From Halichondria panicea (Eukaryota > Porifera > Demospongiae > Suberitida > Halichondriidae), in NCBI RefSeq assembly GCF_963675165.1, contig NC_087380.1:1008303-1072302 (forward strand): a stretch of 64,000 nt of DNA, given 5' to 3'. The notes beneath the pieces were generated by a model. It was not told the DNA's origin. It saw nothing but the letters and a program-made list of their open reading frames with translations, and searched no databases. Made by a program: the position numbers and the translations under genes. Below are positions 36,801 to 64,000 of the stretch, piece by piece; the first letter of the stretch is position 1; every line of letters starts with the position of its first letter.

Positions 36801-38724
36801 CACTGAGTCCCTTTGGTTGACTGACTCCGTACAGAGGACAGGATGGTACTAGACCCATGCTACCAGGTGGGCGGTGGATGGTATAGGGGGGAGGGGCTCG
36901 TTCACGCTTGCTTGAGAACACAAACCCTGTGTGAGTAGATACATAGCGTATATTAAGTGTTTATTGATCACTATGAGAACCTGTGAGGTAAGGGCTGAGT
37001 GGTGACTTGAGCATAGGTAGCTGTTGCACCATCTCATTTCCATCAACTGGGAAGAAGAAAAAAAATAATATGAAACTGCATGTGAACAAGAGATTGATAA
37101 ACAAGAATAAGGCCAGTGCTTGGGGCCAGAGAATTCAACTGTGGGGTAGAAAGACTACACACACGGGAGAAGTGAACACACTACAATCACCTTACACACA
37201 AGATAACAAACAGTACGAAATATTCTTACCAATAGAGGTTGTCTCTATCAATGGAGGTAGCTTGAGGTCCCTCAACACACCCCCACCACCAGGACCACCA
37301 GGACCACCACCACCAGGACCACCACCACCACCAGGACCACCAGGACCACCCTCTCTCATGGCAGACGGCAGTGACTGTGGCAGCTGTACAGTGTTGTCTC
37401 TTGTCGGGCGAGTTTGACCCTTCAACGGTTCTTGAGTAGATGCTGCAAGTGTGTTCGTATCGTCCACAGCTTTTCGTGCAGGAGGGAGAGATAAAGTGTC
37501 CTCAACTGTAGGTGAGGTCTTAACTCTGGACTTAGACTTCGGCCTATCATTTTCGACTGTCGTGGTTTTGGCCGAGGCTGCTGAGAACAAATCAACTGTT
37601 TCAATGTCTTCTGGTTCAACTACTGTAATCAAATCATCCATAGATGCTGTTGTCATTGGTAACTGTTGATAAGTAACAGCTGTCTCTTGAACGGACTTGG
37701 GTAAAACCCTTTGCAGAAAAGTTTCTCCAACTTCAATCGGTTCAACTGTTTTCGGTGTGCCCATTTTATTTATGGGTAGTCGAAACGTTGAAGGTGATGG
37801 GGAGTGTAGTACTTCCTCTGATTCTTGACTGATAGTCGCTAGGCTCTCTTCGACTGTTCTGATCTTGGACTGAGTGTGGGTGAAGTACGAACTTCGTTGT
37901 TCCTTAGGTGCTGGACTTACGGGGAGAATTAGACCACCCCCTTCAATTAGGAGGGTGTCGGCTTGGATTTGGGGGAGGTCAGAGTTCATTGTAGCGTCCA
38001 TGTGGCTGTCTACTTCAGTCTCGCTAGATATCATACTTGAATTGGCAACGTTCTCTGCAATTGGTTTATCGGTCCAGCCATTTTGTGTGGGTGTTCTCAA
38101 TTCTGCCGATTTGCTGTAAAACACTCGAGTAGCGGTTGTGGGAGTACTAGTGACCTCATCAGTGTCGTGGTTACTAGGCCCAGTCACTGGCACCACTGGC
38201 ACCACTCTACTCTTGGATGCTGTCACGTAGGTCCGTCTCTTCTGTGTTGATGACTCCACCATTTTATTGCCTCTTCCTCCAGATCCTGCTGAGATTGATT
38301 TCCTAGACACATCTTTGCTGAGTTCTTGCTCTTCTGTAGTTTGTGTGCCATAGAAGTGGGATGGAACTTCAGTAAGAGTAAAGGGAGTGCCTTTATCAAC
38401 TGGAAGGCCGGGCAGATTGCCCGGGGCGATTTTCCTGGACCTCACAGCAGCAAAGGGGGGTGGGGCTGCTTGATCTTGTTGTTTTATCACCTCTCCTGCA
38501 GGTGAAAACACCTCTTCTTCCAGCGTTGACTGCCCGCTCCTGCTCGTAAAGATGTCCATATTCACTGTGTAGTCTTGTGCTTCAGTGTCTGCTAGCTTGC
38601 CCTTTTGGTCCGGGGCAATGCTCACCCTGCGTTTCATCCATGATCTGTGTGTGTGCAGAGCCTGCCTTGCCTGCTCCAGCGTCTCCACAACGCTCAGTCG
38701 TCGAGTACCCATCAGATCATTCAT
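31807..38724 (-). CDS. Ankyrin-repeat and PH-domain protein
   Basis: Thirteen exons: 38724-37230, 37046-36981, 36926-36801, 36601-36352, 35928-35836, 35693-35621, 34986-34813, 34557-34400, 34193-34016, 33770-33425, 33356-33249, 33045-32890, 32303-31807; 1239 aa. Exon 1 encodes about 498 residues of low-complexity, Ser/Thr-rich sequence ending in a Gly-Pro stretch (GGPGGPGGGGGPGGGG). Ankyrin repeats run from about residue 640 to 930 (GPLHLAARSGNLRRLQSLIN, DGSTAMHLASSVGGVALIEL, VGMTPLMWAAYNNNAGVTSY, GRTPLHYAAACGRVDVCALL). After a linker, exons 11-13 form a PH-like fold (PLRHYFFRLSPDQGTVSWSE; ending YSSWLREIGQVA, about 1020-1105). The tail is disordered. Cytosolic scaffold or membrane-adaptor function is inferred. 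No named orthologue is recognised; it is not an ARF-GAP or OSBP protein, since neither domain is present. Confidence 0.82.
32607..32730. mobile_element. MITE-like hairpin with 22 bp terminal inverted repeats
   Basis: Ends 32607-32628 (ttagacactgtttaggaagt) and 32709-32730 are perfect inverted repeats; inner arms (cagggctagt and actagcccttt) continue the pairing. It lies in the last intron of the ANK-PH gene. Confidence 0.8.
32745..32850. repeat. Fragment of the interspersed palindromic repeat
   Basis: Contains ggccataactttagttttg and gattttctaaaagctta of the family described at 6120-6470. Confidence 0.5.
33771..33832. repeat. (GT)n tract abutting a minus-strand acceptor
   Basis: GT run that reads (CA)nCAG on the minus strand and directly forms the acceptor of ANK-PH exon 10. 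Confidence 0.95.
35000..35299 (-). repeat. 50-51 bp tandem repeat, six copies
   Basis: Unit carries gagctccccatccccctagg and ends gcactgtaaa(a)tag. On the minus strand each unit contains an acceptor-like ctattttacag. The three units nearest exon 7 are in frame with it, encoding LPPRGMGSSVFTSYFTV repeats, but the distal 50 bp units break the frame. Confidence 0.9.
36010..36320. repeat. Interspersed palindromic repeat, copy F
   Basis: Good copy in an ANK-PH intron: ctgccataacttgaattccg, actttctgaaagcttagaaa, centre taccatggataatagcccat, then aaggtctctttctaagcttt. A second 60 bp piece of its leader is at 35750-35815. Confidence 0.8.
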
Positions 38725-57817: not shown

Positions 57818-58343
57818 TTAGACGAAATTAGTGACTACATTATTTTCGTTGTTTCATGTGTGGCCCGTGGTTGTGTACGTGATGCTTGGGTTCATCTTGT
57901 GACTTGTGATATAATTTTTCTATGACAATTTGTGATGCTATTTACATAGAGAGATTCTAGACCTTGGCCTGGTAGTACACTAGGTCAATTATGACGAATT
58001 ATGACGCACTTACTCATTGATTCACACGTTGCTGCGGTCGCTTGAAATAGACACCAATTATAATGGCATTGAGATTCCTTTTATGGCTTTTAACCGCAGG
58101 AATGCATTTTAGTTCCGTTAGGTCACCAAAACCACAGTGCTGTAAAAATAGACAGGCAAGCATAAATAATTAAATCAACTCAAGTTCGCATATAAAGCTA
58201 GATATCCCACCGAGAAAATCAATTTCACAAACTAATCAGCCTTGCTAAGTAGAGCTGACCGTAATAGATTATTGCAAAGAAGAGTTTGCAGAGACCATTC
58301 TCAAGTGTGCATAACAAGAAAGCCACAACTCCTTTGTTCAGAG
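57818..58343 (+). promoter_or_regulatory. JUN promoter and 5' UTR region
   Basis: 526 bp between the FGGY stop and the JUN start. TATAAAG lies at 58191-58197. Upstream, TGACGCA (58000-58006) and TTACTCA resemble CRE/AP-1 half-matches, as expected for an autoregulated JUN gene; this is a motif reading only. The frame is open upstream of the ATG, but the first ATG is at 58344. Confidence 0.5.
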
Positions 58344-59384
58344 ATGATGTCAGTCAACCAACACGGAAGCCTTTATGATCTGCAGGACGATAGATTCTCC
58401 AGCTCACCAAGATCTGATTTTTACCTGGACCTACAGCAAGAGAAGCTCAAGCAACTAAAGCCACACTACTCAATCGCCTCAAGTCAATCCCTCAACCTTT
58501 CACTCAACACTCCCGATATCACTACCCTGCTCTCAGACGTTGCAGCTCAGAGCTCGTCCATAACTACTCAAGCTCCCACACCTAATTCATTCTTTAGAAG
58601 CCAAGTAACACAAGAGCAAGAGATGTATGCTCAGGGATTTCTCCAGGCTCTCGATGAACTCCACACAACTGTGAGTGGACCCAGAGACCTAGTGAGAGCT
58701 CCAACTGCAGTTACTCTACCACAGCAAGAGATGCCAAGACAGCCCGCTGCTGGCAACCACCATAAAGTGATCTCAAGTGCCCCTGTGGTACACCATCATC
58801 TACCATCACCACCAATTGCAATTGGTTCGAACCCAACCCTCGAAGCAGTGTCACCGTACGTGACAGCCACTCTCGATTTCATTCCCAACATCCCCTCCTC
58901 CCAGCCTGAAGCCACTTCCGCATTTATGAGTCGAAGCGGTTCGACTAGTCTGAACTACGCTACAAACTCTTACCCTCACTTCAGCAACCTATACCCTGGA
59001 AGTCAAGCAGTGGACGCTTACAGTGGCTACAACACAGCCATTAGCAGTGCCGCTCACATTATGCCTGCTCTCCCCTCATCCCAAGTACGAGATCTTCAAA
59101 ATGTGGTCCCGGCCGATATGCATACCCAAGAACAGATGAAAGAGGAGAGGAAGAAAGCACGCAATCGAATGGCTGCTTCCAAATGCCGTCTCCGAAGACT
59201 GCAACGAGAATCTGAACTGCAAGGAAAAGTGAGGGTCCTGAAAGAACACAACCAAGAACTAAACTCTGAGGTCACTGATCTACGAGACCAAATAACCAGT
59301 CTGAAGCGTGCTCTGATCCAGCACATGAAGGGCGGATGTCATGTTAATTTCCCTGAGGGCTATGTATTAGACTCATCTGAGTAA
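58344..59384 (+). CDS. JUN: JUN-type bZIP transcription factor (AP-1)
   Basis: Single exon of 346 codons. The first ATG is at 58344 (MMSVNQHGSLYDL); upstream frame has only non-ATG codons. The N-terminal half has a Jun transactivation block: LNTPDITTLLSDVAAQ, TTQAPTPNSFFRSQ, then QEMYAQGFLQALDELH, parallel to c-Jun's TPTPTQF and EGFAEGFVRALAELH region, with TP sites suited to JNK. The bZIP is at about residues 265-330: ERKKARNRMAASKCRLRRLQ is the DNA-contact region with the invariant N..AA..CR, followed by a leucine zipper (LQGKVRVLKEHNQELNSEV). Absence of introns is a feature shared with c-jun. Nuclear; binds TRE sites as homo- or heterodimer. The C-terminal HVNFPEGYVLDSSE is lineage-specific. 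Confidence 0.93.
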   Translation: MMSVNQHGSLYDLQDDRFSSSPRSDFYLDLQQEKLKQLKPHYSIASSQSLNLSLNTPDITTLLSDVAAQSSSITTQAPTPNSFFRSQVTQEQEMYAQGFLQALDELHTTVSGPRDLVRAPTAVTLPQQEMPRQPAAGNHHKVISSAPVVHHHLPSPPIAIGSNPTLEAVSPYVTATLDFIPNIPSSQPEATSAFMSRSGSTSLNYATNSYPHFSNLYPGSQAVDAYSGYNTAISSAAHIMPALPSSQVRDLQNVVPADMHTQEQMKEERKKARNRMAASKCRLRRLQRESELQGKVRVLKEHNQELNSEVTDLRDQITSLKRALIQHMKGGCHVNFPEGYVLDSSE

Positions 59385-60306: not shown

Positions 60307-60639
60307 TCACAAGATCACACAGCATTCTCCGCCATTGTTGTGATGGTGATGATGATGTCCGTGATGGTGGTGTGGAGGGTGGTGTACTGGCTCCGGGAAG
60401 TGGGTGTGGCCATGTCCATGATGGTGGGCCTGTCCATGTCCGTGATGGTGGGCCTGTCCATGTCCGTGATGGTGGGCGTGGTCATGTCCGTGATGGTGGC
60501 CATGGTGGGGGATGAGGTGGTCCCGCTCATTGTGAACTACGTTAGCTTCATGTCTCAGATGGGAGGCAGCTCCGAAATGGCCGTGTCTTGCTTCCTGCAG
60601 AGAGTGTGTGTGTGGTGTGTGGAGTGTGTGTGTGTGCGC

Positions 60640-60683
<44 letters not shown>

Positions 60684-62533
60684 AAGTGTGTGTGAATATA
60701 GTGACATCCTCATTAAGAGGTTTCCTTTGAAGGCTTCCTTTGAACTATACCCTATATTAACAGATTGGTGGCTCAGCTGGTACATGTAACTTCATTACTG
60801 TAATGAACTGTTTGCATACAAAGTTGATCTCAACAGAATAAAAACTTCATCCCAAGACAGCTTCCTAACAACACGTGTCAGATGGTATGATTACCGTAAT
60901 AAGGGACAAATGGTAGAAGAAAACAAGATAATAAAATTAATTTTCAGTATTATGCTCCATTTCACCTTTATTACAACTTTGCACGTACCAGGTATAGCTG
61001 TATATAGTATAGGAGGTGACAAATCCACACCACCTAACTGTCCCCGCTTTATCTTAATGTCAGGCCTCATTGCACATGTACACGTCAGATGCTTTAGGGA
61101 CTAATAGGCTTACAGCACTAACCTTTAGAATCATGTGATTACTGACCTCTTTTAAAAAAAATTGTTTATATAAACTGAAATGCTGATACTTCCAACCATC
61201 AACTCCAATGTTTTGACATCTATATAGTTACGGTGCATCTACCCTCAATATTATAAAATACCCTGCACGGCTGCTACAAGTATACAAACTATCGACAGTA
61301 TGCTTACACAACGTGAGTTTCTCTTTCAATAATTAGGGAAATCAGGCATACCCTTGCCTGTGCAACTTCCAAATGTAGCTTTCAAAATTATCCTAGGCAA
61401 TTGGGAAAACGATACATGGATGTATAAAATCTTATGAAATGTCAACCACCCACTTCATAACATAGGGAAACGCTATCAGTGACATCATGCATAAAAATAA
61501 TCCTTCAACTCTCCCTAGTGGCCTTGTGAGTGTACACTAAACTTTAAACAGAGCAGCATTTTATAAAACAACATTAGATGCTATAACGTACACTGCTGTA
61601 TAAGTTATGCACACAACTCTATGGTTCTCATAGCTAGAGAGAAGCGACATAATTCAATTGCCAATTTCTCCTATTTAGACATTACCCAGCTGGGGTAGCA
61701 CTGTACAATATTTCAGTTACCATCGAAATCAAATTAGGGTACATCCTGTTGGCACACAGAAACCACTCAATGGCAGAAGCACTTGCTCTGTGTGGTTTCT
61801 TAGTAACAGAACTCTTACACACCAAGTACATTGTAATGTGAGCTCCACCACTGAACCACCTTGTGGTTATTCTAGTGCATTTTTCTTTTTGTGGGAATTA
61901 ATTTCGATGATAATTATGGCTGCTAGCTCATACAAAACTATGGATTTATTAGGGGAGGCTATAAAGAGGGACTAGTGAACAGGGGTTGTTTACCTCTTCC
62001 ACACTGAAGGTACAGGAAAGGTGATTATGAAGGTCATATATACATAACCTACTAAAGGTCAAAGGTCCCCTAACAATATACACTACATACTCACAAACAA
62101 TAAACGTAAAGGTCATTTGAACGACAGATTGCTTAGTCATAATTATGCAGAACAAAGGATGTACACACTCGAGGTCAACTAGCTACAGAGTACATTATCC
62201 TGTTAGTAATTTGACTACACAGTACATACCATATACATGTAGCTGATAATTTCCGGGGGGGGGGGGGGGGGGACAAAATATTCGTGGTTTTCGTGGTTGG
62301 AGCTCTGGCCACGAATATTTTATCCACAAAGTGACTAAATATTGCTCAACTTTCAAATGTTTTCCCCCCGAAAATTACCGGCTACATGTATACGGTTACT
62401 TCTATAGCCATAGAACTGTACTGGAGGTATTAATATTCAAAAAGCTCTTCGAATTTAAAGTATAAGAGTATAATCTCACCTCCCTGGCCTCTCTCCGGAG
62501 AGCTTGTTCCTCGTGACGTAGTGCTCTGTTCAT
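60307..62533 (-). CDS. Small histidine-rich protein with C-terminal CaaX box
   Basis: Two coding exons, 62533-62480 and 60594-60307; 113 aa. The first part is a charged helix (MNRALRHEEQALRREAREEA), then RHGHFGAASHLRHEANVVHN. From about residue 47 the protein is dominated by His: HHGHHHGHDH, three copies of AHHHGHGQ/H, and later HHHHGHHHHHH. It ends NNGGECCVIL, where CVIL fits a CaaX prenylation box (final Leu favours geranylgeranyl) and the preceding Cys could be palmitoylated. The start is the first ATG of an exon whose acceptor at 62548 implies an upstream, probably non-coding exon; the frame upstream of the ATG is open for only four codons here, so a longer N terminus is not excluded. A membrane-tethered metal (Zn, Cu or Ni) binding role is inferred. 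I recognise no named family. Confidence 0.7.
60601..60690. repeat. (GT)n tract abutting a minus-strand acceptor
   Basis: GT/GC run next to the acceptor of the His-rich exon (CA-rich on the minus strand, ending ctctctgcag). Confidence 0.9.
60691..62479. other. Intron of the His-rich gene
   Basis: 1.8 kb, AT-rich, no gene recognised. Contains the MITE at 62240-62390 near its 5' end. Confidence 0.55.
62240..62390. mobile_element. MITE-like element, family GGTAATTTCCGGGGG, copy 2
   Basis: Starts ctgataatttccggggg with an expanded poly-G, then ttcgtggttttcgtggttgg, gactaaatattgctcaac, and ends cccccgaaaattaccggct. The terminal inverted repeats pair (taatttccggggg with cccccgaaaatta). Confidence 0.8.
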
Positions 62534-62547
62534 GTCTCCACCAGCTT

Positions 62548-64000
62548 CTGCACAGGACAAACACACACACACACACACAGAGTTAATACATTGATACTCA
62601 ATACTATATACATGCATCTCTGGGTGTAGTGGTTCATTCTAAACAGGCCACCATTCTTTATAGTGTGACAGACACACACAGTTTACTGTATACAGGGAAT
62701 CAGGAAAAACACACACACACACACACAAAGCTTTCACAGGGAATGATATAACCAGTTGACTATGTTCCCACAGTTTCCATACGGTATTATAATTACTAGC
62801 CAATTATGTTACACAGCAACAAAACTTGGAATTAAGTGAATGACTACCTTTGAACTTAAGTACTAAAGAGCCTAATAGCCTAATGAGGTGAAGCAGCTAC
62901 AAAGGTTAGGGGGGGAGAGAAGCTTCACATGAATGAATGCAGTCTACTGAAAGGCAGCCAGGAGGGAGACAAGAGGAAGACAGGGAGACAGGGAGACAGG
63001 ATACATTTGTATAGATATAAAACGTACAACTTCTGGAAGTGTAGGTAAGGAAGTGGATGAACACTAATCAATTAAAAAGTTGTCTGAAATTGATGAGTGG
63101 GGGTTCAAATAAGCTCAATAAGCTCAGTGGGAATGCTGAGGCTACGATAAGTGCCAAATAGGTTGGAAGTCATAATAATGCATCTAGAATGTGTATGCAC
63201 AAACACACATGCACCGCTATACACACAATGACAACAGTGAAATTCCTCCAAGGGTAAACTCCACTGAACTTAACCAAAACTTCCCTTTAAAGAGCCGCTA
63301 CCATATTTGAATTGTACAAGGCATGTGCATTTAGCTTTTACAGAGCTTGTACTTAGCTTGTACTTAGCTTGTACTTCGCTTGTACTTCGCTTGTACTTCG
63401 CTTGTACTTACTTACTTGTAGCTTGTACAGAGCTTCAGGCACTTTAATACAATGCTCCAGATTGCTTTGCTGATACCATGCACATGCGCTAAGGAGAACT
63501 ATCTTATCACTATAATCAATCATACATGCCTAAGAAATTAAGTCTGGTGACCAACTGTTGATTAAGCTGAAAACAACACCATAACAAAGCTAAGGTACGT
63601 CACATGAATTAAACCCCAATTATCATATCATATAGCGGGCGGACGATATCTTTTAGAACATTTTTATCTTAATAATTGTCGTATCATTAAAACACCATTC
63701 TCCATGGATAGCAATTTTTTATCTACTGAGCCATGCAACGTGTGTGCATCCAACAAAGTGCATAGAACCTCATAATTTTATAGGGTAACTCTACACCACT
63801 GCACACGCACTTACTGAGCTCTCTATTGAATGCAGGCTAGGACGGTGCAGCTCAGTGGATCGACCAGAGAAGATACTGCCCTCAATGTAAAACGGTAGCC
63901 TCTACACAGGCTCTCCTTTTTCTGTTCTTTATCACAATCGTTCAATAAGATAAAATACTGTATTATTCGTTCAATGAGATAAAATACGGTATTAATTGGA
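62548..64000. other. Right-end region, no confident coding gene
   Basis: Mostly AT-rich unique sequence with short CA runs. On the minus strand a strong donor-like site (CTCA|GTAAGTGCG, near 63811) follows a stretch at 63811-63895. This could be a 5' UTR exon of the His-rich gene; it has no ATG, and its only open frame would end in the wrong phase for coding. Confidence 0.4.
63335..63430. repeat. 11-12 bp tandem repeat
   Basis: About seven copies of agcttgtactt/cgcttgtactt, flanked by agagcttgtact and agcttgtacag. Confidence 0.9.

Follow-up and report, generated by a model that had tools for sequence, protein, structure and literature searches.

On the minus strand of the window, by which we mean the whole stretch of 64,000 nucleotides analysed (G000:C4:1008303-1072302), lies a predicted gene with two coding exons (Table 1). 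Its splice sites match the consensus and join the exons in phase 0, and the coding length of 54 + 288 bases corresponds to 113 codons plus a stop codon; the coordinates given in an earlier note for a 113-residue minus-strand gene proved to be exact. There is a single in-frame ATG, which supplies residue 1, the only Met of the protein. Transcription and splicing of the gene are predicted from these signals. Should the possible 5' UTR exon ending at 63815 be used, the start would stay at this ATG, because an in-frame TAG lies upstream at 63839-63837, within that exon. Taken as a helix, the first-exon peptide has a hydrophobic moment of 0.73, a single value with no control run beside it.

Several other elements were seen in and around the gene. 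The intron contains a MITE-like palindrome at 62228-62396, with 33-base arms that are 88% complementary and an inner 17-base inverted repeat, and also a CA repeat near the acceptor. Upstream, an 11-base tandem repeat of 7.3 copies occupies 63331-63410, which would lie in a first intron should the guessed UTR exon exist. On the plus strand, an open frame of the Jun-type bZIP class (window 58236-59384; Pfam Jun and bZIP_1 both over cut-off) stands tail to tail (convergent) with the window gene. Jun and, by eye, further open frames of the window point to an animal as the source of the DNA.

Table 1. Coordinates of the predicted window gene and of its two paralogs. Positions are those of the window unless preceded by L006.
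Feature	Position	Strand	Remarks
Window gene, predicted two-exon model	62533-62480 + 60594-60307	minus	consensus splice sites, phase 0
Possible 5' UTR exon end	63813..63839	minus	donor CTCA/GTAAGTG, exon end 63815; consensus guess, by eye
Probable 5' UTR portion of first coding exon	62534..62547	minus	after acceptor CCTGTGCAG; consensus only, by eye
First coding exon, MNRALRHEEQALRREARE	62480..62533	minus	ATG at 62533; 18 codons
Intron, 1,885 bases	60595..62479	minus	GTGAGA donor, CTGCAG acceptor; phase 0
Second coding exon	60307..60594	minus	end of helical-looking segment, His tail, CCVIL and stop
24-base tandem array, 4.2 copies	60400..60499	minus	codes (A/G)HHHGH(G/D)(Q/H)
CaaX box codons	60310..60321	minus	TGT GTG ATC TTG (CVIL); preceding TGC = Cys109, 60322-60324
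Paralog A exons	L006 4662-4703, 4825-4920, 4981-5343		model from consensus splice sites
Paralog B exons	L006 5592-5633, 5699-5794, 5850-6132, 6191-6417		model from consensus splice sites

His accounts for 40 of the 113 residues of the protein (35%). The earlier note had given about 35 percent for the second half; the figure is right for the whole protein, while the second half (residues 57-113) is really richer, with 27 His in 57 residues (47%). In residues 47-103 the count rises to 33 of 57 (58%). Within the tail, the 24-base array runs from a degenerate GHHHGHDH through AHHHGHGQ, twice exactly, to AHHHGHGH, and the AHHHGHGQ units noticed before are thus present in two exact copies besides these two variants. 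Among units 2-4 three columns vary, each at a third codon position in the His frame, and one of these changes turns Gln into His; adding the degenerate first unit brings in two variable second-position columns.

CA/TG repeats, the source of HTHT frames, abound in the window. It contains 19 frames with a 50-residue stretch of at least 25% His, the frame of the window protein among them. The other 18 reach 26 to 40% His and, judged by eye, consist of CA repeats or resemble repeats; they are mostly HTHT, with one HQDH frame at 37266-37439. The best 50-residue stretch of the window protein is 56% His and comes from a different (24-base) repeat. A microsatellite artefact was rejected as the origin of the tail, because its repeat is other than HTHT and the variation among its units, read in the His frame, falls mostly in third codon positions. 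That the whole gene is a non-functional, chance open frame in a microsatellite-rich region is, in our judgement, very improbable: the CA repeats do yield His-rich frames, but here the splice sites are in phase with a single in-frame ATG, the variation falls in third positions, a CaaX box ends the frame, and the N-terminus resembles a constrained pair of paralogs (see below).

The C-terminus of the protein reads NNGGECCVIL, and its only two Cys residues, 109 and 110, both lie within CCVIL. The window contains 485 stop-to-stop frames of at least 50 residues; Cys stands at -4 in 19 of them, and two of the 485 end in C-a-[VILMA]-L, namely the window protein and a frame made of TG repeats. CVIL at the stop codon has the form required by GGTase-I, C-a-a-L with an aliphatic a2; the anatomy first proposed for this protein, a His chain together with a CaaX box, was right. 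CVIL is the natural end of rice CaM61, and GFP-BD-CVIL is described as an in vivo geranylgeranylation reporter (PMC3886798). According to PMC1175975, farnesylation of CVIL is also possible, the linker of CaaX substrates is hydrophilic, about 11 residues long and either small or flexible, and GGT1 substrates tend to carry Lys or Ser at -1. The linker of the window protein, HHHHHHNNGGEC, fits partially, by eye, to the pattern as far as that source gives it, and has neither Lys nor Ser at -1.

The same five residues end human and mouse UBL3, for which CCVIL is described as the membrane anchor; mutation of C114 in UBL3 lowers membrane localization more than mutation of C113, and mutation of the first Cys lowers covalent modification of partners more (PMC10511055). 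A UBL3-like gene was also found in the genome under study, on C16, where an exon ending ESRCCVIL (L027 2486-2547) follows two exons matching PF13881. These exons scored 19.2 and 19.1 bits against a cut-off of 23, and one of them reached 21.3 bits (E 0.0003) on a separate search; with these sub-threshold matches and the tail as its basis, the gene is called UBL3-like. By eye, its last 18 bases differ from those of the window gene at two positions. We regard the CaaX call for the window protein as strong at the sequence level, because CVIL is the tail of a geranylgeranylation reporter, CCVIL anchors mammalian UBL3, and CCVIL ends the UBL3-like gene of this genome. Prenylation of the protein is predicted, and 14 matches to the prenyltransferase family (PF00432) were found at three places of the genome, on C7, C9 and C10, at the level of the family rather than of GGTase-I.

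Searches with the window protein returned no Pfam family at E up to 10, no NCBIfam family at E up to 1, and no sequence match at E up to 0.1 among solved structures. Four scans of prokaryote and viral collections gave 180, 240, 68 and 413 pattern matches and no confirmed relative. In the open literature, the titles and abstract beginnings inspected describe no His-rich protein that is prenylated or carries a CaaX box, and the print record may hold one. The window protein thus appears to belong to no described family within the databases, collections and open papers covered here, and orthologues may be widespread in other animals and present among deposited sequences. A role in silica, comparable to that of sponge glassin, was considered because the genome looks sponge-like; it is unlikely, as no signal peptide is apparent by eye.

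Relatives were sought in the genome itself (131 Mb, 39 contigs). A weak DNA match led to 893-895 kb of C13, where a tandem pair of His-rich genes is located (G000:C13:893161-894916, equal to L006 4662-6417). Paralog A has 166 residues, of which 51 are His, with nine exact VQPHGHGH units; paralog B has 215 residues and 31 His, and its His-rich stretch is followed by a Pro/Tyr-rich tail (PPPQGAPYQPPPQ..., ending YPPSSYPGYP). Ungapped comparison of the N-terminus of the window protein with paralog B gave 15 identities in 40 positions and a score of 73, which was reached by 0 of 20,000 shuffles of either side. The gapped comparison with paralog A scored 58, matched by 56 and 31 of 20,000 shuffles. 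When the genome is searched with the window protein alone, the C13 pair is not recovered, and the similarity therefore rests on targeted comparison.

Between paralogs A and B, the first 69 codons gave a dN of 0.17 and a dS of 2.7 (NG86; dS near saturation), and this N-terminal segment is therefore constrained. In the array of paralog A, the three variable columns among the nine units are all third codon positions. It can be seen that the C13 pair is like the window gene in its N-terminal segment, clearly so for B and less so for A, in its long His-rich tail and in intron phase, which is 0 for the window gene's coding intron and for introns 1 and 2 of both paralogs; intron positions relative to the alignment, judged by eye, differ. 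The pair also differs in being longer, in having other repeats, and in that neither modelled protein has a Cys or a CaaX box, in contrast to the window protein with Cys109/110 in its CaaX box. No two of the three members have the same repeat unit (AHHHGHGQ; VQPHGHGH; mixed H/G), yet all remain rich in His, consistent with composition being what matters.

Judging from the modelled sequences, paralogs A and B look soluble, and the lipid-anchor signal is peculiar to the window protein among the three members found. Because both C13 paralogs are without a CaaX box, anchoring is not a trait of all of these members. Orthologues devoid of the terminal Cys had been named in the earlier note as a ground for giving up its prediction. 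Both paralogs are devoid of it, so the anchor is no general feature of the family; being paralogs, however, they are not the orthologues that the note had in mind. Protein searches of the genome for other paralogs gave 5 + 4 matches, all within the C13 pair, and one further match of the gene to itself. Another genome search with the window protein gave its own two exons and three weak frames with stops; one of the three, L014, was inspected and consists of simple-repeat frames. These protein searches scored the best candidates only, and diverged members may be missed.

Membership of the family in DUF1771 (PF08590) was rejected, as the scores fell short of the cut-off or did not rise above shuffles. 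The match of a 140-residue piece of paralog B to DUF1771 was faint (residues 12-63; E 1.5; 9.6 bits, cut-off 28.7), no match was obtained with the window protein or with the N-terminal 74 residues of paralog A, and the similarity to the genome's own DUF1771-like frame was at shuffle level. Four frames of the genome match DUF1771, none over the cut-off, and two of them were inspected. L017, by one motif, looks like a gene of the N4BP2/Smr type. L018 resembles, by eye, a short frame of a membrane protein and may be an amplified gene; L018, L019 and L020 (G000:C14:2153-2199 kb) are three equal-scoring weak matches within 46 kb.

One possibility is that this is an ordinary lipid-anchored protein whose N-terminal segment is the functional part and whose His tail is only a spacer expanded by repeat slippage. 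The segment common to paralog B beyond shuffles is indeed the N-terminal one, and the His array is a 24-base tandem repeat; however, high His persists in all three members despite different repeat units, and the variable columns in window units 2-4 and in the units of paralog A are third positions, so that we find this improbable. Little credit is likewise given to an adhesive or condensate scaffold, in which the His tails of the family would phase-separate or bind proteins and the window member would recruit the condensate to the membrane: the long low-complexity Pro/Tyr-rich tail of paralog B and the free variation of repeats among members speak for it, but the window protein has no Pro/Tyr-rich tail.

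The reading that we favour, with a rough probability of 0.4, is that geranylgeranylation holds the window protein, as a disordered His brush, at the cytosolic side of a membrane, where it would buffer Zn-type metals. The protein would be cytosolic and consist of a short helical N-terminal segment and a disordered His tail of roughly 60 residues. A geranylgeranyl group would be added at Cys110 (CVIL), probably followed by trimming and methylation, with perhaps acylation at Cys109. The lipid anchor would place the His chain as a brush on the cytosolic face, and the brush would bind and buffer transition metals of the Zn type (Zn, possibly Cu or Ni) with low specificity. The window protein would then be the anchored one of the three family members found in the genome. 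Membrane side, disorder, helix and metal binding are all predictions from the amino acid sequence. Three stretches lying upstream of the window gene and of the paralogs contained no metal-response-element core (TGCRCNC); this absence says little because less than one core is expected in each stretch (0.76, 0.54 and 0.05 from shuffles).

Hisactophilin of Dictyostelium, a lipidated protein with 31 His, is described as binding actin and membranes with pH-regulated switching (PMC13405390). For the mature window protein, the model charge was +0.1 at pH 7.5, +2.3 at 7.2, +13.5 at 6.5 and +24.8 at 6.0, with one pKa of 6.3 for all His and no charge coupling. From this rise of the model charge from about zero, the main rival is a pH-driven membrane switch: the lipid would hold the protein near the membrane, and acidification would protonate its 40 His, giving a polycation that acts on acidic lipids or actin in the manner of hisactophilin. 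We consider it unlikely. Cytosolic pH rarely drops to 6.5, a geranylgeranyl group is permanent whereas the myristoyl group of hisactophilin is sequestered and released, and a folded core is not evident in the sequence of the window protein.

Buffering of Zn and Cu is usually ascribed to soluble Cys-rich proteins and folded chaperones. If the favoured reading of a lipid-anchored His chain is true, weak binding sites of high capacity would be positioned directly at the membrane. The three genes would also offer a test case for the gain or loss of lipidation in one gene family, since a single genome holds proteins of similar N-terminus that either carry or lack the anchor.

Among known systems, hisactophilin has an N-terminal myristoyl group, which needs an N-terminal Gly, and a folded beta-trefoil core. 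The window protein is likewise His-rich and has a predicted lipid signal, but the signal is a C-terminal prenyl one, the tail is of low complexity, and the protein begins Met-Asn, with Asn at residue 2 and no N-terminal Gly for myristoylation. With UBL3/MUB proteins it shares the last five residues, CCVIL, and so the C-CaaX tail that they require; only the tail is common, however, and no ubiquitin-like domain was detected in the window protein because no Pfam family matched. HIPPs, in turn, are described as metallochaperone-like and likely membrane-associated proteins that combine a metal-binding part with a C-terminal isoprenylation site, have HMA domains and are said to be unique to vascular plants (PMC10459601). 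The window protein resembles them in the isoprenylation motif, given here by CVIL, and differs in having a His-rich chain with no Pfam match in place of the HMA domain, in an animal-type genome. The earlier statement that no described family has this design therefore stands as regards membership, for none was found, but is too wide as regards design, HIPPs and hisactophilin being described and close. Tentatively, the three genes may be an animal His-brush family, one member of which acquired a CCVIL anchor and would act as a membrane-tethered, low-specificity buffer of metals (or protons), a convergent counterpart of the plant HIPPs with a disordered chain replacing the folded HMA domain.
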